A stretch of 64,000 nt of DNA from Zhongshania aliphaticivorans (GCF_001586255.1 NZ_CP014544.1:3380501-3444500); one strand, 5' to 3'; shown: positions 19,008 through 35,944, counted from the first letter of the stretch. Notes: a model not told the origin generated them from the letters alone. Made by a program: numbers and translations.

Positions 19008-20261
19008 TTAGAAGTTAGCGCTCAAGGTCAGCCATACTTTCTCTGTGTCCGTTAAGCTCAGACCACCGCCGTTAAAGGCCGTGCTGTCTCCGGCACTATA
19101 GCTGGCATAGCGCAGTTCCGCAGAATATGGCCCCCAACTTTTGGTAACCATAGCGCCAAGTTCAGAACCTAAGTCGCTATCACCGGCGGCATTATTCTGC
19201 TCAGACTCAAAGCTGTGGTAGGCCAACAACCAATTCACACCCAGTGCCGCGCCACCAACAGTGAAGTAGGTGTCGTTAATACCTTCGCTGATATTACCCA
19301 AACCCTTGTTTAGGAACATATCGGTCCAACCTTGGAATTTAAACAAGGTCGCCAACGGCGTGATAAAGAAGCCATCTTTGTCAGCACCAAGCGCTTCATA
19401 GCCAAGACCTAAGGTCAGCGGCGCGAGTTTATAGCTAGCCTCAACCAACATATAGTCTGAGCTGTAGTCGGCGGGATTATTACCCGCGCTTTCTTGGCTC
19501 GCGTACTCAACATTATAGGCAAGATCACCCGCCTTACCCTGCCAGCGGATACCGTAGGTATCGGTATCCATACGCTTAAAACCGGCTAAATTATCATCGG
19601 TCTCAAGCAAATAGGCATAGCCGGTTACCGTACCGGCAGGCAGGGTGTAGCTGGCGTTCAATAGATGAGAATCCATTTCGGTGTCGCCCACCGCACTGGC
19701 TTCGCCAAATATCCGGTTTACATTGGCAATATGGGCGTAATTAAGTTTCAGGTTTTCGACACTGCTATTCGCCGCAGTAAACGCGTCGTAGGTCTGCTCG
19801 TTTTGACGCCAGCCAACGTGTCCAACAAAACGGTGATTGTCATAGGTCAGGCGCTGACGACCATATTTAAATTCGCTATTCCAATTGCTATAGCCAATAA
19901 AGGCTTGGTTAACTTCACTACCTACCGGATCGGCTATCAGCGATTCAGAAACCTGCCCATTCACGCTGTCGTTGGAATCACCGGCAAAATTGCTGACGTC
20001 GTCAAATTCAACAAAGCCACTAAAGCCCTTAAAGGCATCAGTTTTATAATTTACGCGGGTTTTTAGGGTAAGCGCGTCACCTGTTTTATTACCACCGGCG
20101 GCCACATCCTCGGCAACCGATTCGTAACGCAGACGCAAGTTCAAATGGGCCTCGCCCTGACTAAGCGCTTCGGTAATAGATTCTGCCGCAAACGTAGTTT
20201 GCGCTGCTGCAGCGAATAAACCGAGAGAAACAGCCGAGGATAATGATTTCTTTTTCAACAT
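19008..20261 (-). CDS. outer-membrane beta-barrel porin
   Basis: 417 residues from the ATG at 20261, which gives a clean signal peptide (LKKKSLSSAVSLGLFAAAAQTTFA). The mature part begins with strands such as LNLRLRYESV, alternates polar and hydrophobic residues throughout, and ends in TLSANF; the terminal Phe is the usual signal for barrel insertion. It resembles OprD/alginate-export-type channels (EFKYGRQRLTYDNHRFVGHV), but the substrate cannot be told. It stands alone between a 660-base non-coding stretch and mpl, with its own terminator. Confidence 0.88.
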   Translation of the reverse strand: MLKKKSLSSAVSLGLFAAAAQTTFAAESITEALSQGEAHLNLRLRYESVAEDVAAGGNKTGDALTLKTRVNYKTDAFKGFSGFVEFDDVSNFAGDSNDSVNGQVSESLIADPVGSEVNQAFIGYSNWNSEFKYGRQRLTYDNHRFVGHVGWRQNEQTYDAFTAANSSVENLKLNYAHIANVNRIFGEASAVGDTEMDSHLLNASYTLPAGTVTGYAYLLETDDNLAGFKRMDTDTYGIRWQGKAGDLAYNVEYASQESAGNNPADYSSDYMLVEASYKLAPLTLGLGYEALGADKDGFFITPLATLFKFQGWTDMFLNKGLGNISEGINDTYFTVGGAALGVNWLLAYHSFESEQNNAAGDSDLGSELGAMVTKSWGPYSAELRYASYSAGDSTAFNGGGLSLTDTEKVWLTLSANF

Positions 20262-20920
20262 AATGTGTCTCATTAAGATAAATGTTTGTTAGGCAGATGC
20301 ACACCGCAAACAATACTTGTCCCAATCAATTTGCGATGACTAGGATTTAGCAAACAACGAGCCACAATAAAAATTGAGCAGAAATTAATTTATAAACACT
20401 TTAAAATCATGGCATTACAAAAATAATCAACTATCACCACCTCCTCTTCGCCCCAAACACGAGCACAATAAATTTTAAATATTACTGCAACAATTCCAAT
20501 TTGGAGCCAAAACGCACCAATTAATACCACCCAGAAAATTGCGCTATTTTTGTGCCGCACCATAAAGAAGCAAGTCGACACAGCGCTTGCTCGGCAAATA
20601 AAGTCCGATTGTAAAAATACGAAAGTGGAAATTAGCCGAGCAATATCAGCGTAGACACCAGCGGAAAAAACTTGTCACTAGAATACAAACAACGCGCCTA
20701 AGGCAAAGACACCCAACGGCAAACGCAGCAATGCCACTTCCATTATGAGTAAGTGGCATATGCTTATATTGATATCTTAAGATTAGGTATTCACACGTTG
20801 CTAAGCAACATAGAAAAAAATCAATAAATTTAGGCGAAAGAAACGCACTGATTAATCAGCTAGATTTATCGTGGTGACCAAGACGCTAGGCTTATAGACA
20901 GCGAACCGAGCTTGCGTTTT
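20262..20920. other. AT-rich non-coding stretch between the TonB-like gene and the porin gene
   Basis: No convincing gene in either strand across about 660 bases. Its left end is the porin leader and its right end follows the stop of the TonB-like gene. Two short dyads are visible: GTTGC-TAA-GCAAC at 20797-20809 and the perfect palindrome CTGATTAATCAG at 20848-20859. The porin promoter should be here, but I could not pick a confident -35/-10 pair. Confidence 0.5.
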
Positions 20921-21961
20921 TTACGGCATATAACTAATAGGGTAGTTAGGATAGGTAAAAGCCGGAACTGCCTTCGCCTCAAACTTCAACATACTCACGC
21001 GCTGCAAAAGTTTTTCTTTTAAATCAGAATTAAAAAAGCTAGATGAAACTATTTTACAATCACTCACCGAACCGTCCGGCTGTATGGTAAGACTAACCAC
21101 CACCGTGCCAGCGTGAATGCTAGAGTCTTTGCGAGCGGCCCGATTAAAAATGCTATAGAAAGCCGTTTTACTGCGATCAAACGCTAGTTGAATTTCCTCC
21201 AAGCTCCGCGACGGTTTTATACTGCTAGGCTCGCCACCGCGATTATTGGTAGCCGCCGACCGCGACGGAATCGCAAGCAGCTGCTCTGTACTGTGCTGCC
21301 CCACGCCGGTACTAGCTTGCTGGCCACTAACGCTGCGCAGACCAATGTCACCATGACCAGCACTACTTTTACTTGCCGAGAGCTGCTTGGCGCTAAGGTC
21401 GATAGACTCCTTGCTGACTGCACCTCGGTCGCGCAGGTTTTGCTCGGCAACAAGCACCTTATCGCTGTTGTCGCGCAACTGCGCTAACTGCTGACTAAAA
21501 GCCATAACGCCCGCCTGCATTGCGGCTGCCTTTGCCGCCGCCTGCCGCCGCGTGGCTGCGGCGGCAGCATCCTGCTCGCGCTGTTTCATATTCACCGTCT
21601 TGGTTGGTGGCGCCACAACAGGCGCTGGCGCAAGTGGTTCTGGTTTTAATGCTTGGACGATGGTAGTCGGCTTTGGCTGCGGCTTAGCAACTGCCGGTTT
21701 TGCTAACGGTTTTGGCGTGGGTACCGGCAGCAGTTCTAAAGCATAATTCACTGTCGGCTTTACCGCCGTGAGCTCAGGGGCTTCAACGACCCAAAAAGGC
21801 AAGGCAAGTAAAAACACCAACAGCAGGCTAATAACATGACCGAGAATTCGCTTAAAATGCCGATCTGCGGCAAACATAATTCCCCAGTAATCGGCACCCA
21901 AGACGGAATGCCCACTCAGGCCTTGGCTCGATAAAAGTGGCCCCGAGATCACTGTGTTCAT
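20921..21961 (-). CDS. TonB-like energy transducer with AgmX/PglI-type C-terminal domain
   Basis: 346 residues: cytoplasmic N-terminus, one transmembrane helix (about 41-59), a Pro/Lys/Ala-rich stretch (78-121) typical of TonB-like periplasmic spanners, an Ala-rich coiled-coil part (128-160), a Ser-rich linker, and a C-terminal domain (about 265-346) with VVSLTIQPDGSVSDCKIVSS, the pattern of AgmX/PglI C-terminal domains in Myxococcus gliding proteins. Inference: it transmits force from the ExbB/ExbD-like motor encoded just upstream to an envelope partner. Its ATG overlaps the upstream exbD-like stop (ATGA). Last gene of an eight-gene operon. Confidence 0.82.
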   Translation of the reverse strand: MNTVISGPLLSSQGLSGHSVLGADYWGIMFAADRHFKRILGHVISLLLVFLLALPFWVVEAPELTAVKPTVNYALELLPVPTPKPLAKPAVAKPQPKPTTIVQALKPEPLAPAPVVAPPTKTVNMKQREQDAAAAATRRQAAAKAAAMQAGVMAFSQQLAQLRDNSDKVLVAEQNLRDRGAVSKESIDLSAKQLSASKSSAGHGDIGLRSVSGQQASTGVGQHSTEQLLAIPSRSAATNNRGGEPSSIKPSRSLEEIQLAFDRSKTAFYSIFNRAARKDSSIHAGTVVVSLTIQPDGSVSDCKIVSSSFFNSDLKEKLLQRVSMLKFEAKAVPAFTYPNYPISYMP

Positions 21962-22479
21962 GCCCCGCCTCCCTGAGTAATTTCCCGCACGGCAAGCGAC
22001 ACTCGTTCAAAATTCGCATCAACGCAGGTCGCTAAAATCTTTTTAAGCAGCCGATACGGTATGTCTCGGTCGGCAACAATATTCACGTCACCGGCACCGG
22101 GCGACTGCGCTGCGTCTAACTCCGTGGCGCCAGCAACACCCTCTGCACGCGCTAATGGCCGCAGCGCCGCCGCTAGTAAGCCGAGGACGCGCTGCTCCGA
22201 CTGGAGCGCTGCCTCAACACTCATTATTGGCTGCTCATCGAGCAAGATAGCTGTGGCGCTCACCGCGACGGTAACCGTGCGCTGGGCCTTTTCGGTGGCA
22301 ATGGAGCTGGGCAATATTAAATTCTGATACTCGGGAATAACCTCAACCACCAGGGCGTTAACCAATAAGTAAAAAACTAAGATGGCAAAGATATCAATTA
22401 ACGAGACCACATTAATCGCAACGTCACGGCCACCAAGTTTAATTTTTCGATTTAGCTTTCGCTCCTGGCGGCGGCTCAT
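21958..22479 (-). CDS. ExbD/TolR-family protein, second copy
   Basis: 173 residues: a basic N-terminus, one transmembrane helix (about 23-47) with an Asp near its start (SLIDIFAILVFYLL), as in the proton-conducting helix of ExbD/TolR, then a periplasmic domain. The segment VNIVADRDIPYRLLKKILATC matches the conserved ExbD C-terminal strand-helix. It overlaps both neighbours by four bases. Together with the preceding exbD-like gene and the ExbB homologue it makes a one-TolQ, two-TolR motor, as in the AglR-AglQ-AglS set of Myxococcus. Confidence 0.88.
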   Translation of the reverse strand: MSRRQERKLNRKIKLGGRDVAINVVSLIDIFAILVFYLLVNALVVEVIPEYQNLILPSSIATEKAQRTVTVAVSATAILLDEQPIMSVEAALQSEQRVLGLLAAALRPLARAEGVAGATELDAAQSPGAGDVNIVADRDIPYRLLKKILATCVDANFERVSLAVREITQGGGA

Positions 22480-23063
22480 GGCGACACGCCCGACTCAGCA
22501 CTAGCACTGCCCGGCGCAACATCTCCCATTGAAATCACTGGAAACAAGGCTGTGCTGCCATCCACACTAACACTGCCTACCGGGTACTCTCTACTGCTAT
22601 CCATTACCGCAACGATGTCGGCGTAGGCAATGTCTTCTGCAATCAACAGGCTTAGTTTTGTTTCACTGGGATGCGTGCTTTTTATGTCAATGAGTACCTG
22701 CGCGAGTCCTGCAGTGTCGTAGCCGGAATCACGCTTAGGCAATTTCTTTTGCACACCGTCGCTATTGGAAATCTCCAAATAATCTTCAAACAAACTTACC
22801 GCTAAATCGAGGCTAGGCGTCTCGCTCACCTGAGGCGAAGGCGACACCGACGGCAAGCTCAATTTCAGCGCGTGTAGCTTACTGGCAGAAACCGATGAGC
22901 CAACCAAGAGGAAAAATACCAGCACCGCAAACACATCAATCATCGACACAATATTCAGCTCGCCGTCGGCTCGCTGACGCAGGCGCCGTTTTAAACGACG
23001 TAAGCGCCGCGAGCTGCGCGGCCCCTCGTCAAAATCTGGCTCAATACCAAACATGGCGCTCAT
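22476..23063 (-). CDS. ExbD/TolR-family protein, first copy
   Basis: 195 residues: a long basic N-terminus (RRLRRLKRRLRQR), one transmembrane helix (about 39-60) with the key Asp in SMIDVFAVLVFFLLVGSS, and a periplasmic domain ending with ADIVAVMDSSRE. It is clearly divergent from the second copy encoded immediately downstream, so the pair is an old duplication and not an assembly repeat. Overlaps the next gene by four bases and lies 9 bases after the ExbB-like gene. Confidence 0.88.
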   Translation of the reverse strand: MSAMFGIEPDFDEGPRSSRRLRRLKRRLRQRADGELNIVSMIDVFAVLVFFLLVGSSVSASKLHALKLSLPSVSPSPQVSETPSLDLAVSLFEDYLEISNSDGVQKKLPKRDSGYDTAGLAQVLIDIKSTHPSETKLSLLIAEDIAYADIVAVMDSSREYPVGSVSVDGSTALFPVISMGDVAPGSASAESGVSP

Positions 23064-23072
23064 GATTACCCC

Positions 23073-23717
23073 TCAGTGTTGCAGTGATTTACTGCGACTA
23101 AGCGCGGTGACAAATCGCGAGCAAGCAGACTCCAGGGTGTCGACTAGCTCCCCGGCCTGACTTTGCAAATAGGCGTGGGCAAATAGCGAGGGAATCGCCA
23201 CCATCAAACCAAATGCTGTGCAGCTCATCGCCTCAGAAATACCCGCCGACAGCAAATTGGCTTTTTCCACGGGATCGGCATTGCCCAGTGCAGCAAAGGC
23301 GCCAATCAAACCCAGCACCGTGCCGAGCAGCCCCAGCAAGGTGGCTGCATTTGCAAACGTCGCGAGGTAATGGGTACGGCGCTCAATGACGGGCAACAAC
23401 GCCATCAAACCATCTTCGGTGGCGATCTCCACATCGCTGCGGCGACTATCAATACGAGCTTGCTCTAAACCACAATTCAAAATATGGGCGACCGCCAGCT
23501 TTGAACTGCCAATCAAGTTCTCCGCCTCGCCAAGTTTACCGGCACTTAACATGGGCCACACTTTTGCCCAAAACCGCCGATTATCCCTGAGAGATTTATT
23601 CAAGAAGATAAAGCGTTCAATACTGATGGCAACAGCAAAGGCAAGCACCAGAGCAATTGGGTACATGAAATGACCGCCATTGTTAAAAAACACGACGAAC
23701 GTCGATAAGGCTTCCAT
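23073..23717 (-). CDS. MotA/TolQ/ExbB-family proton channel protein
   Basis: 214 residues with three membrane segments: one at about 17-37 (MYPIALVLAFAVAISIERFIF) and two in the C-terminal half flanking ANAATLLGLLGTVLGLIGAF and ISEAMSCTAFGLMVAIPSLF, the ExbB/TolQ signatures. It would form the pentameric stator around the ExbD-like pair. A good Shine-Dalgarno (GAGGA, six-base spacing) precedes the ATG, and it is 51 bases from the small exported protein upstream. Confidence 0.93.
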   Translation of the reverse strand: MEALSTFVVFFNNGGHFMYPIALVLAFAVAISIERFIFLNKSLRDNRRFWAKVWPMLSAGKLGEAENLIGSSKLAVAHILNCGLEQARIDSRRSDVEIATEDGLMALLPVIERRTHYLATFANAATLLGLLGTVLGLIGAFAALGNADPVEKANLLSAGISEAMSCTAFGLMVAIPSLFAHAYLQSQAGELVDTLESACSRFVTALSRSKSLQH

Positions 23718-23768
23718 AATTATTCCTCAAAAATGTAATGTCTAATGAGCCTGAAGATAGCTTCTGCG

Positions 23769-24053
23769 CTACCAGTTATTCGACTGCAAACGCCAGTAGC
23801 GATAAGCGCGGTGGGCCTGCTGCCATTCGGCGTAACGCTGAAATTCGTCGGCGTTAATGGGCTTGGGGCTCTCGTCAATTAACTGCGGCGGCCGATCGAT
23901 ATCACTCACCGGCTCCTCCCCCCAAGGCATTAGATACAGTCCCACCGCTGCCTCATCGTCACCGCGAATCGTCACGCCCATCTCTTGCTCGGCAGCGGCA
24001 GGCAGCGCCGCGCCTAGCACCAATGCCACTGTTAAAATTTGCATACCCCTCAT
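23769..24053 (-). CDS. small exported protein of unknown function
   Basis: 94 residues: signal peptide (MRGMQILTVALVLGAALPAAAEQ) and an acidic mature part of about 70 residues containing VTIRGDDEAAVGLYLMPWGEEP and an aromatic end (AYRYWRLQSNNW). No family recognised. Its start overlaps the stop of the TPR lipoprotein gene by four bases and the ExbB-like gene follows, so it belongs to the motor operon and is probably a periplasmic accessory. Confidence 0.75.
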   Translation of the reverse strand: MRGMQILTVALVLGAALPAAAEQEMGVTIRGDDEAAVGLYLMPWGEEPVSDIDRPPQLIDESPKPINADEFQRYAEWQQAHRAYRYWRLQSNNW

Positions 24054-24652
24054 CTGCTCACCTGCGACACATTCGCCGCAACATAATCGCTTGCGGACTC
24101 CAGATTATGAATCCATGCACTGACCAGCATATTGTCACCGCCGGTTAACTCCTGATATCGGCGATAGTGCTCAAGTGCTTGGCTACCGCGTTTAAACACC
24201 GTTTCGTAAAGAATGCCCAGGTTTAAATGAGCCGGAGCGTAATCACCACGAACAGCCAAGGCCTTGTTATACCAATCTAAAGCACCATTAAAATTTCCAC
24301 TTTTGCTGGTAACAAAACCCATCCAATTTAACGCGGTGACATTTTTCGCGTCTCGCTGCAGCGCAGCCAAAAAGTACTTGGCCGCCGACTCATGTTGCTG
24401 CTGGCGCGCCGCGAGTATCCCTAAATTTGTCAGCGGCCCGGTGGCGCGGGGATAACGCTCACTCAATGCTAAAAATGCTTGTATGGCGCTTTCGCTATCA
24501 CCACTTTTCATTAGCGCTAGTGCATTATCGAATTCGCTCGAAACGGATCTAGAACCTGACTGACTCGATCTGCTTGGCGGCGGCCCGGCACTGCACGCAG
24601 CCACCGTAGCGATTATGAGTAGCACCGCAAAAATCCTAATTAAGCGAGTCAT
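24050..24652 (-). CDS. TPR lipoprotein
   Basis: 200 residues from the ATG at 24652, which begins a lipoprotein signal peptide (LIRIFAVLLIIATVAAC; Cys about 19). A longer in-frame start at 24862 would lie inside the preceding gene and lacks a signal peptide. The mature part is a run of TPR units, for example SAAKYFLAALQRDAKNVTAL and GALDWYNKALAVRGDYAPA. Architecture and neighbours recall GltE/AglT, the TPR lipoprotein of the Myxococcus Agl-Glt core. It overlaps the preceding gene by 17 bases. Confidence 0.85.
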   Translation of the reverse strand: MTRLIRIFAVLLIIATVAACSAGPPPSRSSQSGSRSVSSEFDNALALMKSGDSESAIQAFLALSERYPRATGPLTNLGILAARQQQHESAAKYFLAALQRDAKNVTALNWMGFVTSKSGNFNGALDWYNKALAVRGDYAPAHLNLGILYETVFKRGSQALEHYRRYQELTGGDNMLVSAWIHNLESASDYVAANVSQVSR

Positions 24653-27512
24653 AGCTATTCTCCAATTCAGGCTGTTTGCCATATTTAGCGGGGGCGAGTT
24701 CGGCCAAGGCCACAAGGCTCTTGCGCATACCGGCGGTCCACACGCCCTCGCGAACCCGCGCCAGATTGGTTTCAAAGGCGCTAATTGCTTTCTCTTCAAA
24801 TGGGTAGGCTTGTTCTTCCAAAAGCATGGTGTATTCCGCAAGGACATCACCGTGTAATTCACGGGGTACTTCCGATTTCATTAGGGCGGCCGCGAAGTGA
24901 CGATAAAGCTCGCCCAATTCGTGACCAGCAATAGTCGTAATATCAGCGAAGCCGTAGGCCGCTGCGCGGGCCAAGCTGTCGATGGCGGTTTGCATAGCGC
25001 GTTGACGCCGAGGCAAGCTGTTGGCGATAGGCAGCTTCAGCTCAACACTATTGGCACGCTTTACATCGACCATCGCCAATTGCAAACTGGCATCGGCGGC
25101 GAGTAGTTGCGATGCGGCAAGCGGCATCTCCGCAGCCTGATCCGCAGCGATAATTTCACGCAAATAATTCAAATGTTCGACGCTATTGGCCGCTGCCATC
25201 GTCGCCAAACGCTGACGAAACTGTTGAGCCTCCAACAGTGGCGCCGGAAATTGCGCAATATAATTTCTTATCGCAGTGCGTGCTGCCTCCGTCTGACCCG
25301 CTGAATCATAAAGCCTTGCTGCCAGTGCACTGGCCTGACGACGAGTTTCAAACGCCTCGTCACCGCGCTTGGCAATTTGAGCGTAAACCCCGGCGGCAAG
25401 TACCGGTTGCCCCGATTTCTGATAGGTTTCGGCAAGCAACTTCTCGCCCTCCGCCGCCATAGCATGGCGCGGGAATGCACCTAGAAAATCCTGCAGTACA
25501 CTGGCCGCTTCACGCCAGTTTTGACTCGCATAAAACTGCCCCGCCGCATCGAAACTGGCATTGGCCCGTAATTCCGCTGTTGGACTTAACTGCGCGGCGC
25601 GCATAAATAAATCTGCCGCCAAAACATTGTCACCGGCATCTCTCGCCACTTCCGCACGACGATATACCGATACCGACAAACGGTCTGCCGCCATTTTTTG
25701 CAGCGCCGACTCAGTATCGAGCATTGGCAATAGCTTGCTGTAGTAAATCTCAGCTTGTGCATAATTGTCTTGGGCGAAATAGGCGTCAGCAGTCACACTT
25801 AGTGCCTTTTTCGTCAGGCTCGACGTTGGCAAGGGCGCACCTGCCAACAGTGGCACACACAGCGCAAGGACTTCGTCATAGCGCTTTAGCGCGTACAAGT
25901 CCTCGGCGCTAGCCAGCAGTATGCGGCTGCGCTCCGGGTGCTGGGGAAATACGCTAGCCAATTGTGCGCTGGCGGCAATTACCGCTTGCTGGGCGGCATC
26001 GCGCTCTTGCGCTGGTGCGACCGCCAGCCATGCTCGATATGCTTTTACCGCCGCCAACGCCGCATCCCCAGCCTTGTCATCCGCGGGCAAATCGTAGGCT
26101 ACTAAGGTGTATTGCCGAGCGGCGGCATTGAGCTCGCCCGCATCAAATAGCGCGTCGGCATAGCGCATGCTTGTAGTCGCAAATGCCGGGTCATTGGGGA
26201 ACATGCCGAGCATTTCGCGGTAGGCTGCCGCCACCGCGACAAAACGTGCTTGGCGTAAATTGGCTTCGTTGTCCGGCGTCTGCTGTGCCTCGGCATGGCG
26301 AAAACGCAACACTTCAGCCATATAATCTCGAATTAAATCTAACTTGGCTGGGGCTATATCTGCTCCGGCCGCCGCGACGATGTCATTCGCATAACGCTTG
26401 ATATAAGCCTCTTGAGCAGCAATCATTAAGGCGGTAAATCCACCTTGTTTATAGGCCGAAATCGCTTTTTCACTGTAGCTAATGGCTAAGTCATGCTGAG
26501 GGTTTGCACTCGCAAAATCGTCAAATACGCTCGCCGCATCGGTGTAACGTTGCTTAGCCAAGAGGAGCTCGCCGAGACTGCTATATACCAAAGGAGAGAA
26601 TTGCTTGCCGGGGAGTGACGCAAAATAGGTGTTAATATTATGCCCTTCAGGCTTAGCGGCCAGCGCCAAACACAGCCCTCGCAAACTGTCAGTCAATAAT
26701 TCCGCCTTCGCTGCCGGTGCCCGCGCCGTTAACTCCGCCACGCTGCGCACCTCTCGACGAGGCTTCAATTGCATCAGAATCGCCGTAAAAGCATCGACGG
26801 CTAACTCAGGGCGACCAAGCTGATACTGGCTCCAGCCGTATTTATATTGCGCCATCTGCAAGTAAGGCATGGCAGCATCTTGGGTGATTAATTTACCGTA
26901 CTGGGCCGCAGCCTCGGCATAGCGCTTGCGCAAATAAAGCATTTCGGCGGACCGAAACAAGGCGTCATTTGCACGAGAAGACTGGGGAAAGTCCTCTGCT
27001 AAGCCCCGCAAGGTATCAATCGCAAGCTCCGCGCGACCCGACAATTCGTAGCCTCGTGCCAACTGATATATCACATGATCTTTATTTGGGTAGTCGGGAA
27101 ATTCAAGCAGAAGATCGCGATAAAGCCCGATGGCCAACGCGACCTCCTCCGCATTGATATCGAGACCTTGCCCCGCGGACTCAATACGCAAATCTGCGGA
27201 GCGACGCATTGCCTCAGCCCGCACACCGGGCGCTGAATCGAGCGTTAATATACGTTGGTAATGGTTTAAGGCCGCAGCCTCAACGCGCTGACTCTCAGCG
27301 TCAATGTCGGCTATTTTCTTGGGAGGCAGTTTTTCCATGAACAAGCGATCAGGCCCCTGACCATTCCGCTCTAGCATTCCACCAATGGTTTGCGACTCGC
27401 CACTTGGCTTTACGCTCTGCTGACAAGCGCTAAGCAGAGTACCGACGAGCAATAGCGTCGCGACAACCGGCAGGCCTCGGTGTTTTGATTGATACGTTGT
27501 GACGACTGTCAT
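24636..27512 (-). CDS. large TPR lipoprotein
   Basis: 958 residues from the ATG at 27512, chosen because it overlaps the preceding stop as ATGA; the in-frame ATG at 27533 gives only seven more residues. Lipoprotein signal peptide with LLSAC, then tandem helical TPR/Sel1-type repeats over nearly the whole length (for example LYRDLLLEFPDYPNKDHVIYQ split over 150-172, and YAEAAAQYGKLITQD). Size, repeats and operon position resemble GltD/AgmU of the Agl-Glt machinery. It probably scaffolds the periplasmic part of the complex. Function not demonstrated. Confidence 0.85.
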   Translation of the reverse strand: MTVVTTYQSKHRGLPVVATLLLVGTLLSACQQSVKPSGESQTIGGMLERNGQGPDRLFMEKLPPKKIADIDAESQRVEAAALNHYQRILTLDSAPGVRAEAMRRSADLRIESAGQGLDINAEEVALAIGLYRDLLLEFPDYPNKDHVIYQLARGYELSGRAELAIDTLRGLAEDFPQSSRANDALFRSAEMLYLRKRYAEAAAQYGKLITQDAAMPYLQMAQYKYGWSQYQLGRPELAVDAFTAILMQLKPRREVRSVAELTARAPAAKAELLTDSLRGLCLALAAKPEGHNINTYFASLPGKQFSPLVYSSLGELLLAKQRYTDAASVFDDFASANPQHDLAISYSEKAISAYKQGGFTALMIAAQEAYIKRYANDIVAAAGADIAPAKLDLIRDYMAEVLRFRHAEAQQTPDNEANLRQARFVAVAAAYREMLGMFPNDPAFATTSMRYADALFDAGELNAAARQYTLVAYDLPADDKAGDAALAAVKAYRAWLAVAPAQERDAAQQAVIAASAQLASVFPQHPERSRILLASAEDLYALKRYDEVLALCVPLLAGAPLPTSSLTKKALSVTADAYFAQDNYAQAEIYYSKLLPMLDTESALQKMAADRLSVSVYRRAEVARDAGDNVLAADLFMRAAQLSPTAELRANASFDAAGQFYASQNWREAASVLQDFLGAFPRHAMAAEGEKLLAETYQKSGQPVLAAGVYAQIAKRGDEAFETRRQASALAARLYDSAGQTEAARTAIRNYIAQFPAPLLEAQQFRQRLATMAAANSVEHLNYLREIIAADQAAEMPLAASQLLAADASLQLAMVDVKRANSVELKLPIANSLPRRQRAMQTAIDSLARAAAYGFADITTIAGHELGELYRHFAAALMKSEVPRELHGDVLAEYTMLLEEQAYPFEEKAISAFETNLARVREGVWTAGMRKSLVALAELAPAKYGKQPELENSYDSLN

Positions 27513-29380
27513 CGCATCATCTCCCCATCCCATACCACGCCGCTTAACTTGCGCCGGGTATTCTCATGGTTCCTTGCCAAGGCAAAGTTGGCCTCTGCTA
27601 AATACATTTCCGTACGCCGGTGATGACGATCTATTTCAGCCAGCGCCTCGCGGTCTAATAGCGCTGCCTGTCTTGCGATACTCGCCGTCAAGCGTGGCAA
27701 CAAGGCTTTAGGCTTAGCGTCAAGCCCTCCGCCATCCATCACGACTAAGGCGTCAGCCTGATATGTATCGAGTAAATTGCGAATGCGTACTAATTGCCGA
27801 TACTCACTCAGTGCATCGTGAAAGTCGGCGCTATCAAGCAGTAAATCGAGGTAAGCATCTTTATCGTCGTATAGCGCCGACAGCCAAATGTCCCAACCAC
27901 TGCGGCCGCGCTGATCAGCGAGGTCAATCGCTGCGCGCAATCCGCCATGTTGGATATCAGCGCTTGCGCCACGCAAGCTCTGCAATGCCGCTTGCAAGCG
28001 CTCGCTTGCCGCGACGTAATAGCGTTCAGCCCGTTGTGCCTGCCCCGCCCAATGAGACATCACATAGGGCAAGATCAACAAACCTTCCTGTACGGCGGGA
28101 TCTAGTGGGTCGCGATTTACCAACTCCATCCACGGCACCATCGCCGCCTGCAAATCCTCTTCCTTACCGCCAGAAGCGACCGCCCACGCTCGTCGAAACG
28201 GTGTATGTCGCCGTGCCCACGCTATTTCATCCTCTGAGCCTGACCACAAATAAGGGGTAGCGGTCGCTATTGCCTGGGAAGCATGGTCATCGCTCGCGAC
28301 CAACGGCGCAGCCTGACTCTGTCGCGGACTCAGCAAAGCCCAGCCAAGGCCAACCAGCGCCTTATTAGCATAGGGACTCAAGCGTCGCACTTGACTGAAA
28401 TAATTTACTGACTGCTCACTGTCGCCCTGCTTTAAAAAATGATAACCCAGCGCCAAATTAACTTTATCGCGAAGGAGTAACTCATCCGCCGCAAGCAACT
28501 CCCCTTCGCTCAGCACGGCGAGTAGGGCGACACCTTCGGCATATTTTCCTTGCTGAATGAGGGCGGCGCCGGTATTGAAATGACTAAACATACTACTGGG
28601 CTTGGATTCCTCACTTAGCCGATCAAGCTCGACAAGGCCCCGTAAGCTCACCGGAATATCCGCTAAGCCCAAGTCGCGAGCACTGCGACTTAAGGCGAGT
28701 TTTACTTGTTCAGAAAATTGCCCCGCACTGACACCACTCTTTATCATCACCATTGCATCAGCGAGGGCGTCGAAAGAAAAATGCCGTTTGGCATCGAAGT
28801 AAATTGATCTGAAACTGGGATGACTATCGCCACTACTCACGCTATTTTCGGGGCCACGATCATGCAATTGAATCGCGACTTTATCTTGCCATTTCATCCA
28901 GCCGCCGCGAATCAGCTCTAATTCCCACTGGGTATTTTCCGTAATCGAAATCGTTTTTTCGAAGCGCGGGTATAAGCGCTCGGCGTGGGGGCCCGCGCCC
29001 ACTTCTGTCACGGCAAATTTAACACTTATCGTATGATTTTCTTTGGGTAGCGCCAATTTACTTAAAAGATGTAAGCCACCGTCGAGCAAGGTTTGGGCTT
29101 CCAACTCACTGTAGCTATAACGTGCCGTTTCGCGACCATCAACACTTAGCTTTACCGACTGAATAGCAAAACGGTCATCTCTATTGGCGATATACAAAGC
29201 GATGGTGGGCATTTGACTTTGCGATCGCGCTTCAGCCAATTTTAAATCACTCAATACAGTTAATGCCTCAGCCTTTAAACTGGCACCATCACTTGCATTC
29301 ACCACTGCCGAGAGCAGAAGCAAAACACTGTAAAGCGCGCATTTAATTACACCAAGCAATGGAATTTTCACAAAGCACAC
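27509..29380 (-). CDS. exported protein of unknown function, first gene of the motor operon
   Basis: 623 residues with a signal peptide (KCALYSVLLLLSAVVNASDG). The N-terminal third is beta-rich (TIALYIANRDDRFAIQSVKLSV, split at about 60), and the middle has helical repeats resembling TPRs (GAALIQQGKYAEGVALLAVL, HFLKQGDSEQSVNYFSQVR). No family recognised; by position it may correspond to the GltC-like or another periplasmic component. Its stop overlaps the next start by four bases. The operon promoter must lie in the 350-base gap upstream. Confidence 0.8.
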   Translation of the reverse strand: MCFVKIPLLGVIKCALYSVLLLLSAVVNASDGASLKAEALTVLSDLKLAEARSQSQMPTIALYIANRDDRFAIQSVKLSVDGRETARYSYSELEAQTLLDGGLHLLSKLALPKENHTISVKFAVTEVGAGPHAERLYPRFEKTISITENTQWELELIRGGWMKWQDKVAIQLHDRGPENSVSSGDSHPSFRSIYFDAKRHFSFDALADAMVMIKSGVSAGQFSEQVKLALSRSARDLGLADIPVSLRGLVELDRLSEESKPSSMFSHFNTGAALIQQGKYAEGVALLAVLSEGELLAADELLLRDKVNLALGYHFLKQGDSEQSVNYFSQVRRLSPYANKALVGLGWALLSPRQSQAAPLVASDDHASQAIATATPYLWSGSEDEIAWARRHTPFRRAWAVASGGKEEDLQAAMVPWMELVNRDPLDPAVQEGLLILPYVMSHWAGQAQRAERYYVAASERLQAALQSLRGASADIQHGGLRAAIDLADQRGRSGWDIWLSALYDDKDAYLDLLLDSADFHDALSEYRQLVRIRNLLDTYQADALVVMDGGGLDAKPKALLPRLTASIARQAALLDREALAEIDRHHRRTEMYLAEANFALARNHENTRRKLSGVVWDGEMMR

Positions 29381-29731: not shown

Positions 29732-31450
29732 CTAATGACCCAAACTCCAGATCAGGCAAATGAGTAATATCAAGGATATCCCCTGCCAAACCATCAAGGG
29801 ATTACGGCTTAGCAATGGCTGGAAATTGTCCTTGCTATACACCGGGTTAGGAAACTGAAGGTCGTGAACAAACTCAGAAATGTCGTTATAGCGAAGTTCC
29901 GGACTAATGCTCAATGCACGGCAAAGGGCAGCGTCTAACCATAGTGGCACGTGAGGGTTGTAATGGCTTGCCGCAATATATTCAAGACGCGTAAACGCAG
30001 CAGTTGTTGCGCAATTCTCCAAACGACCTTGATAAGGCTTATGCGCCGTGAGCATTTCAAACACAATGGCGGCCAGCGAAAATTGATCGGCCTTGGTGCT
30101 AGGGCGTCGCCCCAACACATGTTCCGGCGCCGAGTACTGCGCCGTTCCCAGCACCCTGTCGCGAGTAATTGGGACCGCAATTTCGGCTAAACCGGCAACA
30201 TAGCAAGAGCCAAAATCGATTATTTTTACCTGGGCATTATCTCCTATCAAAATATTATCGGGTTTGACATCCTGATGAATTGTATCCCGGCGATGCATCG
30301 CCTGCAGGCCCTTAGCCGCAGGCAAAATAATATCTAACATTTGCTGTGTGGATGGCTGCGGATGCTCAGTCATCCACTGACCAAGGGTTTTCCCCGGCTC
30401 GAATGCCGACAAATAGTACAAGCAGCTTGGCGGCTGCGGCGGATCGATGACCTCGATGACGTATTCACTCTGAATACGCCGCCCCACCCAGCTCTCTAAA
30501 ATAAAGCGCTCGATGTAGGCTGGGTCGTCATTAAAATTTGCCGATGGCGTTTTCATCGCGTAATGCCGATCAGCCGTGGCATCGTATACTTTGTATAGTT
30601 GACTGCGAGGGCTGGCGTGAATCTCGTCCTCAATAACCAAACCATCCACCACCATGCCCGCAGACAGCGGCGGGGGAAACGGCAAGGCGGTCAATTTTCG
30701 ATAAACATCGCCCGCGTCTTCCAGCGGCAAGGCCTCAATTCGCAATAACTGACAGCTTAGATTATCGTCACTACCCGCAGCCAAGGCATCGTCGATCATT
30801 CGCTGGCAAGCCTGATCGAGATCATCGCCCGCATCACTAATAATGGCTTGCATACGGCTACTATTTAAAAAATCGTGAATACCATCAGTGCTCAATAGAA
30901 ATATATCAGCCACGGCCACATCGGCCGCGCGATAGTCCACATCCAAGTTAATGTCCAAGCCCATGGCGCGGGTTAAATACGACTTCCCCCGACTGATGGG
31001 CATGGCGTGATCGCGCGTTAACAGCTCAAGACAGCCATCGCGCAATCGATAAATTCGGCTGTCGCCAACATGGAATAAATGTGCAGTTTGCGATTTAAAA
31101 ACGGCAATACTCAGGGTCGACACATAGCCCTTTTCAGCCTGCAAATAATTTTGACCCTGACCATACAGCCAGCGGTTTAAGGCGTTTAGCACTTGCTGGG
31201 CGGAGCGCTTAACGGACCAAGAATCCGGCGTCGAAAAATAGTCGCTCAAAAAGCCGGTCACACAAGTTTCTGCAGCTTCTTTGCCAGCCTCGGCTGCCGA
31301 TACGCCATCGGCAATAACTGCTACCGCGCCCTTGGTGGTCAACTGCTCATCCTTAGGAACACAAATCCCCAAGCTGTCTTCATTAACGGACTTTTGCCCA
31401 GCGCTGCTGCGCTGGGCAATGGCCAATTTCAAACCGCCATCAAAGTGCAT
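29732..31450 (-). CDS. PP2C phosphatase - Ser/Thr kinase fusion (NarK-linked copy)
   Basis: 572 residues in one chain. Residues 1-240 are a PP2C-type phosphatase: NED (23-25), ADG (47-49), GDSR (129-132), TDG (188-190) and DDN (228-230) carry the metal-binding acids. Residues 270-530 are a Hanks-type kinase: Lys of YAMK (300), HQDVKPDN (392-399), DFG (412-414), APE (441-443). The glycine-rich loop is absent and the HRD Arg is Gln. A membrane helix closes the protein (about 547-568). It follows the NarK-family gene by 54 bases. Pseudomonas aeruginosa has a similar fusion by its assimilatory nitrate/nitrite genes, so a role in nitrogen-oxyanion uptake or reduction is inferred; targets unknown. 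Confidence 0.9.
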   Translation of the reverse strand: MHFDGGLKLAIAQRSSAGQKSVNEDSLGICVPKDEQLTTKGAVAVIADGVSAAEAGKEAAETCVTGFLSDYFSTPDSWSVKRSAQQVLNALNRWLYGQGQNYLQAEKGYVSTLSIAVFKSQTAHLFHVGDSRIYRLRDGCLELLTRDHAMPISRGKSYLTRAMGLDINLDVDYRAADVAVADIFLLSTDGIHDFLNSSRMQAIISDAGDDLDQACQRMIDDALAAGSDDNLSCQLLRIEALPLEDAGDVYRKLTALPFPPPLSAGMVVDGLVIEDEIHASPRSQLYKVYDATADRHYAMKTPSANFNDDPAYIERFILESWVGRRIQSEYVIEVIDPPQPPSCLYYLSAFEPGKTLGQWMTEHPQPSTQQMLDIILPAAKGLQAMHRRDTIHQDVKPDNILIGDNAQVKIIDFGSCYVAGLAEIAVPITRDRVLGTAQYSAPEHVLGRRPSTKADQFSLAAIVFEMLTAHKPYQGRLENCATTAAFTRLEYIAASHYNPHVPLWLDAALCRALSISPELRYNDISEFVHDLQFPNPVYSKDNFQPLLSRNPLMVWQGISLILLICLIWSLGH

Positions 31451-31504: not shown

Positions 31505-32977
31505 TTAGCTTACTTCGATCAGCGCGACACTGCCGTCGTCATTCACTTCGGCGGTATGACCTTGGGGCTCTTCCATAAATTGCACGGCAACAAAGATCAC
31601 CCCAGCGCAGGCAGCAATAACAAGGAAGAAGTTAGAAGCACTCACAAATGACAATACGGTTAAGAATATAACCGCGCCAACATTACCATAAGCGCCGGTC
31701 ATGCCCGCAATCTGACCGGTCATGCTCCGCTTCACTAACGGTACGATCGCAAAAACAGCACCCTCACCAGCTTGAACAAAAAAAGAACAACACATGGTTG
31801 CAAGCACCGCAACCCAGATTGTCCAGGTCGAATCGATATTGCTCAACACCATATAGCCAACAGCCAGACCACAAATCAAAATAGACAAGGATTTACGACG
31901 CCCGAATTTATCAGACAAGTAACCGCCGCCGGGGCGCGCCACCAAATTCATAAAAGCGAAACCTGAGGCCAACATGCCTGCCGCTACCGCACTCAACTCA
32001 AAGGTTTCCATAAAGAACAAGGGCAACATTGACACTACCGCCAACTCTGAACCAAAGGTCACAAAGTAAGCTACGTTCAAAATAGCAACCTGTTTAAACT
32101 TGTACTGCTGCATTTCCGGAATAGGAATATTGTTCAGCACATCACTATTAACGCGTAGTATTTGACTGATTTGCACAACAAACAAAACCACTAATACCAC
32201 ATACAAGGCTATTGAAGCCGCGTCATTTAGCAAACCTAAATTCGCTGGCGACAATTTCCAGGTTAAGGTGGCCAGCGCCAAATACATCGGCACGCACATA
32301 ATAATGTAGAAGATCAGATCACGTTTATTGCTAACAACCAAGCCACCGGATTTTTTAGGTTTAAAGTAGGTAGAGCCCTTGGGGGTGTTGCGTGCGCGCC
32401 AATAAAAGAACACACCGTAAATAGAGGCAACCACCCCTGTTGAAGCAATGGCGTAACGCCAGCCGTCTGGGCCACCAAAATACAGTGCCAATGTTGGCAG
32501 TGCCATCGCGGCAGCTGCCGAACCAAAATTGCCCCAGCCACCGTACACACCTTCAGCTAATCCTACCTGACGGGCCGGAAACCATTCACCCACCAAACGA
32601 ATGCCAATGACAAAACCAGCACCGATAAAGCCCATTAAAAATCGCAATAGGGCAATCGCTTCATAGCTATTGGCAAACGCAAAGGCCAAGCAGACCATAC
32701 CGCCGGTCACCAATAGCGCGCTGTACACTATTCGTGGGCCAAAACGGTCCACTAACATGCCAACCACCACCCGAGCCGGAATAGTTAACGCCACGTTCAA
32801 TATCATTAACGCTTTAACCTGTTGATTAGTGAGGTCAAAGGCTTCTTTAATTGAAGACAGCATCGGCGCAAAGTTAAACCACACAACAAAGCTGAGGAAA
32901 AACGCAAACCAACTGAGGTGAAGTAATCGAATTTTTTCTTGCTTGAGATCAAGCACGTTTAAGGTCGAGGAAGACAT
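31505..32977 (-). CDS. NarK/NasA-family nitrate/nitrite transporter (MFS)
   Basis: Twelve-helix inner-membrane transporter, 490 residues from the ATG at 32977, chosen for the strong CGGAG seven bases upstream. Family landmarks: an Arg-containing segment near [19 protein letters not shown] (split at residue 130), [12 protein letters not shown], and the second nitrate signature [13 protein letters not shown] sigma-54 promoter on the same strand (33020-33035) should start transcription about 30 bases upstream. Divergent from nirBD and followed by the phosphatase/kinase fusion, which points to assimilatory uptake. Nitrate versus nitrite preference cannot be told. Confidence 0.9.
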
Positions 32978-33019
32978 TAACAGCTCCGTTATGGCCATTT
33001 AAAAGTATTACTCCTGAAG

Positions 33020-33035
33020 AGCAAGGCCTGTGCCA
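33020..33035 (-). promoter_or_regulatory. sigma-54 promoter of the NarK-family gene
   Basis: On the minus strand this reads TGGCACAGGCCTTGCT, a full match to TGGCACR-N4-TTGCW with the GG and GC elements correctly spaced. It faces the transporter start at 32977, giving a leader of about 30 bases. Confidence 0.88.
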
Positions 33036-33121
33036 AACGTGCGCACGAACTTTGGGCGAAATCACTAAGACATTGTTTACAAAGGTTTAATTTTTATTTC
33101 GCGACGGCGATTAGTCTACAT

Positions 33122-33138
33122 TGCATTATTTTGGAGCA
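33122..33138. promoter_or_regulatory. NtrC-like enhancer site
   Basis: TGCATTATTTTGGAGCA differs at two positions from the dyad TGCAC-N7-GGTGCA bound by NtrC. It lies about 90 bases upstream of the transporter sigma-54 promoter and about 165 bases upstream of the nirB one, so one site could serve both directions. A poorer half-site (GCACCAAAATAGG) is at 33169-33181. Confidence 0.6.
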
Positions 33139-33300
33139 CACAACGATTAGGCTAAGTCGCACAATAACGCACCAAAATAGGCCTTAACGCCCCAGCAAAT
33201 TCCTCGACCAGCCTAACAAGACCGCTAAATTCGCCCCACAAAAGGGCGAAATTGAAACATACCTATTTAAAATCAATGACTTAATGCATGACCAAAACTG

Positions 33301-33316
33301 TGGCACAGCTTTTGCT
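33301..33316 (+). promoter_or_regulatory. sigma-54 promoter of nirBD
   Basis: TGGCACAGCTTTTGCT matches TGGCACR-N4-TTGCW completely. The expected start of transcription is about 65 bases before the nirB ATG at 33392. I see no terminator-like leader of the NasR/NasT type in that short stretch. Confidence 0.88.
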
Positions 33317-33391
33317 TTTCCTTATGCAATATCCATTAGCAGCACCGGCCGCCCACGCTAGCCATCGCCCAAAGTATTGAAGGAAGTAACC

Positions 33392-35944
<2,553 letters not shown>

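Follow-up and report, generated by a model that had tools for sequence, protein, structure and literature searches.

An Agl-Glt-type core operon in Zhongshania aliphaticivorans and its association with a DUF3034 flavin module

A previous comparative study of the Myxococcus gliding machinery recognised a "Group B" core made up of GltC, GltD, GltE and GltG together with AglR, AglQ and AglS (Luciano et al. 2011; PMC3169522). In gammaproteobacteria, the genes of this group lie clustered in one region, with function unassigned, and are joined there by one extra gene that has no homologues in Myxococcales and Bdellovibrionales (PMC3169522). The same study argued that the Group B core is insufficient for gliding (PMC3169522), and a later one regarded it as a possible basal transport machine (Wartel 2013; PMC3858216). 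In Myxococcus itself, gltB-gltA precede gltC, with GltA being OmpA-like, and gltF, which encodes an 89-aa protein with a signal peptide, is found between gltE and gltG (PMC3169522). Since carriers of the core do not glide, its ancestral function has been a standing question since 2011. We describe herein the content and order of an operon in Zhongshania (Pseudomonadales), the conservation of its core, and its co-occurrence and frequent adjacency within the genus with a flavin module. Sequence comparison supports its identification as a stand-alone Agl-Glt "Group B core complex".

The window, a stretch of 64,000 nucleotides from Z. aliphaticivorans, carries at 20921-29380 eight minus-strand genes that form one tight operon. 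The original prediction of eight genes on a single strand, mostly overlapping by a few bases, was borne out when the ORFs were checked, starts included. The first gene encodes a 623-aa protein, and is followed, with a 4 bp overlap (27512/27509), by that of a GltD-like giant TPR lipoprotein (24636..27512; 958 aa from an ATG at 27512), which overlaps by 17 bp the gene of a GltE-like TPR lipoprotein (24050..24652; 200 aa). A further overlap of 4 bp leads to S94, a small exported protein of 94 aa (23769..24053). Beyond a gap of 51 bp lies an ExbB/TolQ/AglR-like motor subunit (23073..23717), separated by 9 bp from the AglQ/S-like ExbD1 (22476..23063); ExbD1 overlaps the likewise AglQ/S-like ExbD2 (21958..22479) by 4 bp, and ExbD2 overlaps by another 4 bp a TonB-like force transducer (20921..21961) with an AgmX/PglI (GltG/GltJ-type) C-terminal domain. 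Pfam matched these proteins to MotA_ExbB (1.2e-25), ExbD (1.7e-14 and 5.7e-15) and TonB_C (1.2e-5), and found TPRs in three of them, all exported. The NCBIfam model of the AgmX/PglI C-terminal domain, NF033768, placed the TonB-like protein above its curated cut-off; this was the sole such match in the 4.2 Mb window genome (43.2 bits, the next being 13.6), and none of 14 control genomes contained one. Pfam and NCBIfam thereby confirmed the predicted set of one ExbB, two ExbDs and a TonB-like protein with an AgmX/PglI tail, while TPR matches and lipoboxes (LLSAC in the GltD-like and TVAAC in the GltE-like protein) agreed with the two predicted TPR lipoproteins. Promoter and terminator scans stayed at chance level, and a plasmid search gave no match.

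The usual order in relatives is N (~180-200 aa), C (~625), D (~940), E (~210), S (~95), ExbB, ExbD1, ExbD2 and TonB, and a survey of related genomes found this order to recur in many families and orders, including unrelated gammaproteobacteria; the operon is therefore not a product of chance. Most relatives, Z. aquimaris and Z. marina among them, have N and C as separate genes; the two are a single ORF in the window genome, G206, G377, Spongiibacter thalassae and G384. The 623-residue exported protein of the original prediction is thus a real ORF, but one that fuses two genes (~180 + 460 aa) rather than representing a single one, so that the full core has nine parts. Its N part (28856..29380, minus strand; ~residues 1-175), a gene of its own of ~180-200 aa in most relatives, comprises a signal peptide, a long helix and an Ig-like beta-sandwich. 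The GltC-like C part (27509..28855, minus strand), elsewhere likewise a gene of its own (~460 aa in Zhongshania, ~625 aa in other taxa), consists of a TPR solenoid and then a long coiled coil. An AlphaFold model of the fusion (pLDDT 84.5) displays the helix, an Ig-like-looking beta-sandwich, the TPR solenoid and the coiled coil in turn, and that of the GltD-like protein (pLDDT 85.0), the lipobox of which is seen in the sequence, is a TPR superhelix. Fold searches with both models returned generic TPR matches only (9hmf_K, a chain of the Campylobacter flagellar periplasmic scaffold, was 13th among the GltD-like matches listed), as did a PDB sequence search with a GltD-like profile, which returned generic TPR, BamD and CpoB matches only. 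A GltE model matched the GltE-like protein (4.9e-8), yet other TPR models scored higher. S94 belongs to a family with the motif GN.ELPK.LYIVPWK....RP..sLldE.L.P.Dr..F.R, conserved over 67 loci, of which the window copy is a loose match; its likeness to gltF of Myxococcus is one of position only.

The putative orthology with GltC/D/E and AglR/Q/S was assigned from family models, gene order and the published description (PMC3169522) rather than from a direct tree with Myxococcus; on these grounds, the types, sizes and order of the GltC-, GltD- and GltE-type proteins fit. The predicted resemblance to the Agl-Glt core is supported, since the operon agrees with the published gammaproteobacterial core in composition, gene order and its AgmX/PglI tail (PMC3169522), so that the operon as such does not represent a new system. 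Given its homology to the gliding-machine core, it could also be a true gliding-motility machine. Nevertheless, the motility-specific Group A genes of M. xanthus (gltA,B,F,H,I,J,K) were not recognised in the window genome, where a search found no TIGR04565 barrel above cut-off and, for gltF, the positional match of S94 only; moreover, a literature search found no report of gliding in Zhongshania. Because the core genes alone are published as insufficient for motility (PMC3169522), we disfavour gliding and give it scarcely any credence.

Some genomes (G137, G128 and G077) contain three to five GltD-like matches, which suggests that, as in Myxococcus, one cell has more than one core system. At another locus (L058), N-C-D has an ATPase and a secreted vWA-resembling protein before it and opposite-strand Pal/CpoB-like Tol genes after it; no ExbB or ExbD of its own was recognised nearby, and this core is possibly borrowing the Tol motor. 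At L059 and L140 (Zhongshania MAG), the TonB-like gene is split into ORFs of 149 and 195 aa, by a frameshift or an assembly error.

While the motor residues of ExbB are conserved, the two ExbDs have fared differently. ExbD2 carries its membrane Asp (Asp29 in the window) at 59 of 59 loci; the membrane residue of ExbD1 is Asp at 22 and Asn at 35 of 57 loci, and in the Pseudomonadales set nearly all members outside Zhongshania have Asn. The window genome has kept both Asps, that of ExbD1 being Asp43. In an ExbD tree, the Asn-type ExbD1 rows make up one clade (99/95), which fits a single Asp-to-Asn change after which Asn became nearly fixed. Since a homodimer of Asn-type ExbD1 would have no proton-carrying residue, a heterodimeric ExbD1-ExbD2 motor is the simplest reading, and these residue patterns argue for it. 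An Asp-to-Asn change in one ExbD bears on the question of an AglQ/AglS-type heterodimer (PMC9389320). Several loci of Steroidobacteraceae and related taxa (L079-L100) keep the ExbD1 Asp and carry HZS_alpha/LamG modules; the change to Asn therefore does not follow redox-module type.

Within the genus, the core is accompanied by a five-gene module, DUF3034-globin-FMN_bind-PepSY_TM-cupredoxin. Among representatives of 18 Zhongshania species, core (GltD-like) and DUF3034 are both present in 12 and both absent in 6 (Fisher p=5e-5, with species treated as independent and phylogeny uncorrected), and the joint losses behind this pattern could be few. Core and module adjoin in 8 of the 12 species, with the module before or after the operon, and all eight cases occupy one site, between kinase and porin/Mpl genes. 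In the window, the edges of this site are marked upstream by a PP2C-Ser/Thr kinase fusion (29732..31450, minus strand) and downstream by an Alginate_exp-type porin (19008..20273, minus strand). The kinase fusion has a NarK-type transporter on one side and the operon on the other, NirB being divergent (29732-31450, 31505-35944), and this kinase/NarK-type/NirB block is conserved in the genus. The remaining four of the 12 species keep core and module unlinked; one of them is the window genome, in which the module (L139:6039-10007; C1:3,642 kb) lies ~238 kb from the operon. Outside the genus, Hydrocarboniphaga effusa, of another order, has the core followed by DUF3034-globin-FMN_bind-PepSY-ApbE, with ApbE in place of cupredoxin. 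In a tree with weak support at this point, its GltD-like protein comes out as one of the nearest neighbours of the genus clade; arrangement and nearness together suggest that the pair may have moved as one. Their divergent GltD-like proteins had raised the suspicion that G374 and G384 had replaced the core in place. This was rejected, as both fall inside the genus clade (94/86), and rapid evolution under vertical descent is the simpler account.

The TonB-like and ExbB/ExbD-type parts of the operon suggest another explanation, in which the TonB-like protein would open a DUF3034 barrel for energised import of a metal chelate or an organic substrate, with periplasmic flavin, haem and copper redox. 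PepSY systems have been tied to iron reduction, and some of their clusters to TonB proteins (PMC8238504). On the other hand, the operon's ExbD pair did not group with the ordinary TolR/ExbDs of the window genome, but fell into two clades apart from them (99/98, with three outgroups and long branches), and the TolR model gave the two proteins 25.6 and 23.9 bits against a cut-off of 127.3. A TonB-dependent receptor, whose consistent linkage, like a grouping of the ExbD pair with ordinary TonB-ExbBD systems, had been named beforehand as speaking against the original prediction, was encoded by 1 of 30 long flanking ORFs and by none in the window neighbourhood. Furthermore, the window genome has separate Tol and TonB-type systems of its own elsewhere, and a giant TPR scaffold is absent from known uptake systems. 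Ordinary TonB uptake is disfavoured by the inconsistent receptor, the separate ExbD clades and the separate Tol and TonB systems; energised uptake through DUF3034, a special case of the redox reading that we favour below, appears improbable. One of the separate TonB-type systems (L005, C1:3,654,607) has its ExbB followed by an IS30-like transposase; at the equivalent place in G377 (L182), ExbB is followed by two small genes of ExbD-like size (146 and 142 aa) and a TonB-like gene.

Associations with redox proteins extend beyond the genus. The class was sampled with 185 genomes, for the most part a single one from each family, and these were scored for the core by the GltD-like gene; 43 were positive. 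The core was present in 23 of the 24 genomes with HZS_alpha (p=1.6e-16 against the base of 43/185), in 34 of 44 with DUF3570 (p=5e-20), and in all 28 with a myxobacterial-type TIGR04565 barrel above cut-off (p=1.3e-22). HZS_alpha and core mostly share a contig, and are then 7-23 kb apart. A typical block upstream of the core reads HZS_alpha-SH3 barrel-TIGR04565 barrel-TlpA-DUF3570-ApbE; in an alternative block, the encoded proteins are of mono-haem DUF1585, di-haem LamG and Tat types. The window genome contains none of HZS_alpha, DUF3570 and above-cut-off TIGR04565. DUF3034 showed no association with the core across the class (core in 1 of 9 DUF3034 genomes, p=0.69), and the core-DUF3034 partnership is therefore lineage-specific. 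DUF3570 is a proven substrate of ApbE flavinylation, and PepSY and FMN_bind are parts of electron transfer (PMC8238504); of 12 core-adjacent DUF3570 proteins, only 3 had the exact flavinylation motif. The consulted passages of PMC8238504 held no link of the flavinylation clusters to the Agl-Glt core, and the open-access literature yielded none between flavin/outer-membrane modules and the core. The co-occurrence with the DUF3034 module in the genus, the class-wide redox/outer-membrane link and the Asp-to-Asn change of ExbD1 are new here.

Such associations might be mere co-siting, with the core alone performing a general envelope task such as the movement of lipids, polymers or lipoproteins, or outer-membrane tethering. 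This would suit the variation of core neighbours by lineage, the four genus members in which core and module lie apart, and the nine of 43 core-bearing class genomes with neither HZS_alpha nor DUF3570. It is harder to reconcile with the 12/12 and 6/6 concordance, which holds even where core and module are unlinked, and with the very strong tendency of the core, across the class, to occur together with several outer-membrane/redox families, and we consider it unlikely. A machine for polysaccharide or coat transport, like Agl-Nfs of Myxococcus spores, draws on the fact that the core is common to Glt and Nfs machines (PMC3858216) and on the Alginate_exp match of the adjoining porin; yet no family of polysaccharide genes occurred among the recurrent neighbours, part of which were individually annotated, in the clustered loci, which leaves this possibility rather remote.

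Because the neighbours of the core include outer-membrane proteins as well as redox proteins of flavin, haem or thiol type, drawn from different families in different lineages, we favour a force-generating machine, driven by protons, in the service of an outer-membrane redox module (in the genus, the DUF3034 module) rather than gliding; we would give this reading an even chance. Its inner-membrane motor would have five ExbB subunits surrounding a single ExbD1 and a single ExbD2, and would act through the TonB-like transducer with its AgmX/PglI tail, the GltC-, GltD- and GltE-like TPR scaffold, of which the GltD- and GltE-like members are probably outer-membrane lipoproteins, and the small exported subunit. 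The partner in the Zhongshania lineage, presumably in physical contact, is most likely the module of DUF3034, globin-like, FMN_bind, PepSY_TM and cupredoxin proteins, which would provide a probable outer-membrane protein, carriers of flavin, haem-fold and copper type in the periplasm, and PepSY as the electron carrier of the inner membrane. By pulling or moving the outer-membrane side of the module, for gating, assembly or positioning, the motor may link the proton gradient with electron transfer outside the cytosol or with redox-linked uptake. A bolder proposal, possible although we lean against it, is that the ancestor of gliding was a proton motor serving outer-membrane flavin/haem electron transfer, and that most gammaproteobacteria have an obligate 5:1:1 ExbD heterodimer with a single Asp. 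If true, this would define outer-membrane redox machines coupled to force as a new class, from which gliding arose. The function of the core, in question since 2011, becomes testable through its co-occurrence with the module in culturable Zhongshania, and the class-wide link to ApbE, DUF3570 and TIGR04565 likewise renders it accessible to experiment.

Among known systems, TonB-ExbBD and Tol-Pal share with the operon the ExbB/TolQ, ExbD/TolR and TonB/TolA classes and the conserved motor residues; the operon differs in having two ExbDs in clades of their own and giant TPR lipoproteins, and in having no linked receptor, TolB or Pal. The DUF3570-ApbE-thioredoxin and PepSY-FMN_bind flavinylation clusters (PMC8238504) contain the same partner families, thioredoxin-like proteins included. 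The Agl-Glt and Agl-Nfs machines of M. xanthus resemble the operon in motor type, TPR scaffold and TonB-like transducer with an AgmX/PglI tail, and the Myxococcus order gltD-gltE-small exported gene resembles D-E-S94. Unlike in M. xanthus, the core genes are all in one operon, GltF/H/I/J/K/A/B were not identified here by sequence, and gliding is not known for the organism. In relatives, though not in the window genome, TIGR04565 barrels lie close to the GltC-like gene, and this barrel block upstream of the core resembles the gltB-gltA-gltC layout of Myxococcus. The operon also resembles the Group B core, which likewise combines GltC-, GltD-, GltE- and GltG-type proteins with one ExbB, two ExbDs and an extra gene in one region. 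From it the operon of the window differs by the N-C fusion, by a second extra part (N or S94), by the link to the DUF3034 flavin module, and by an ExbD1 that retains the Asp where most relatives have Asn.
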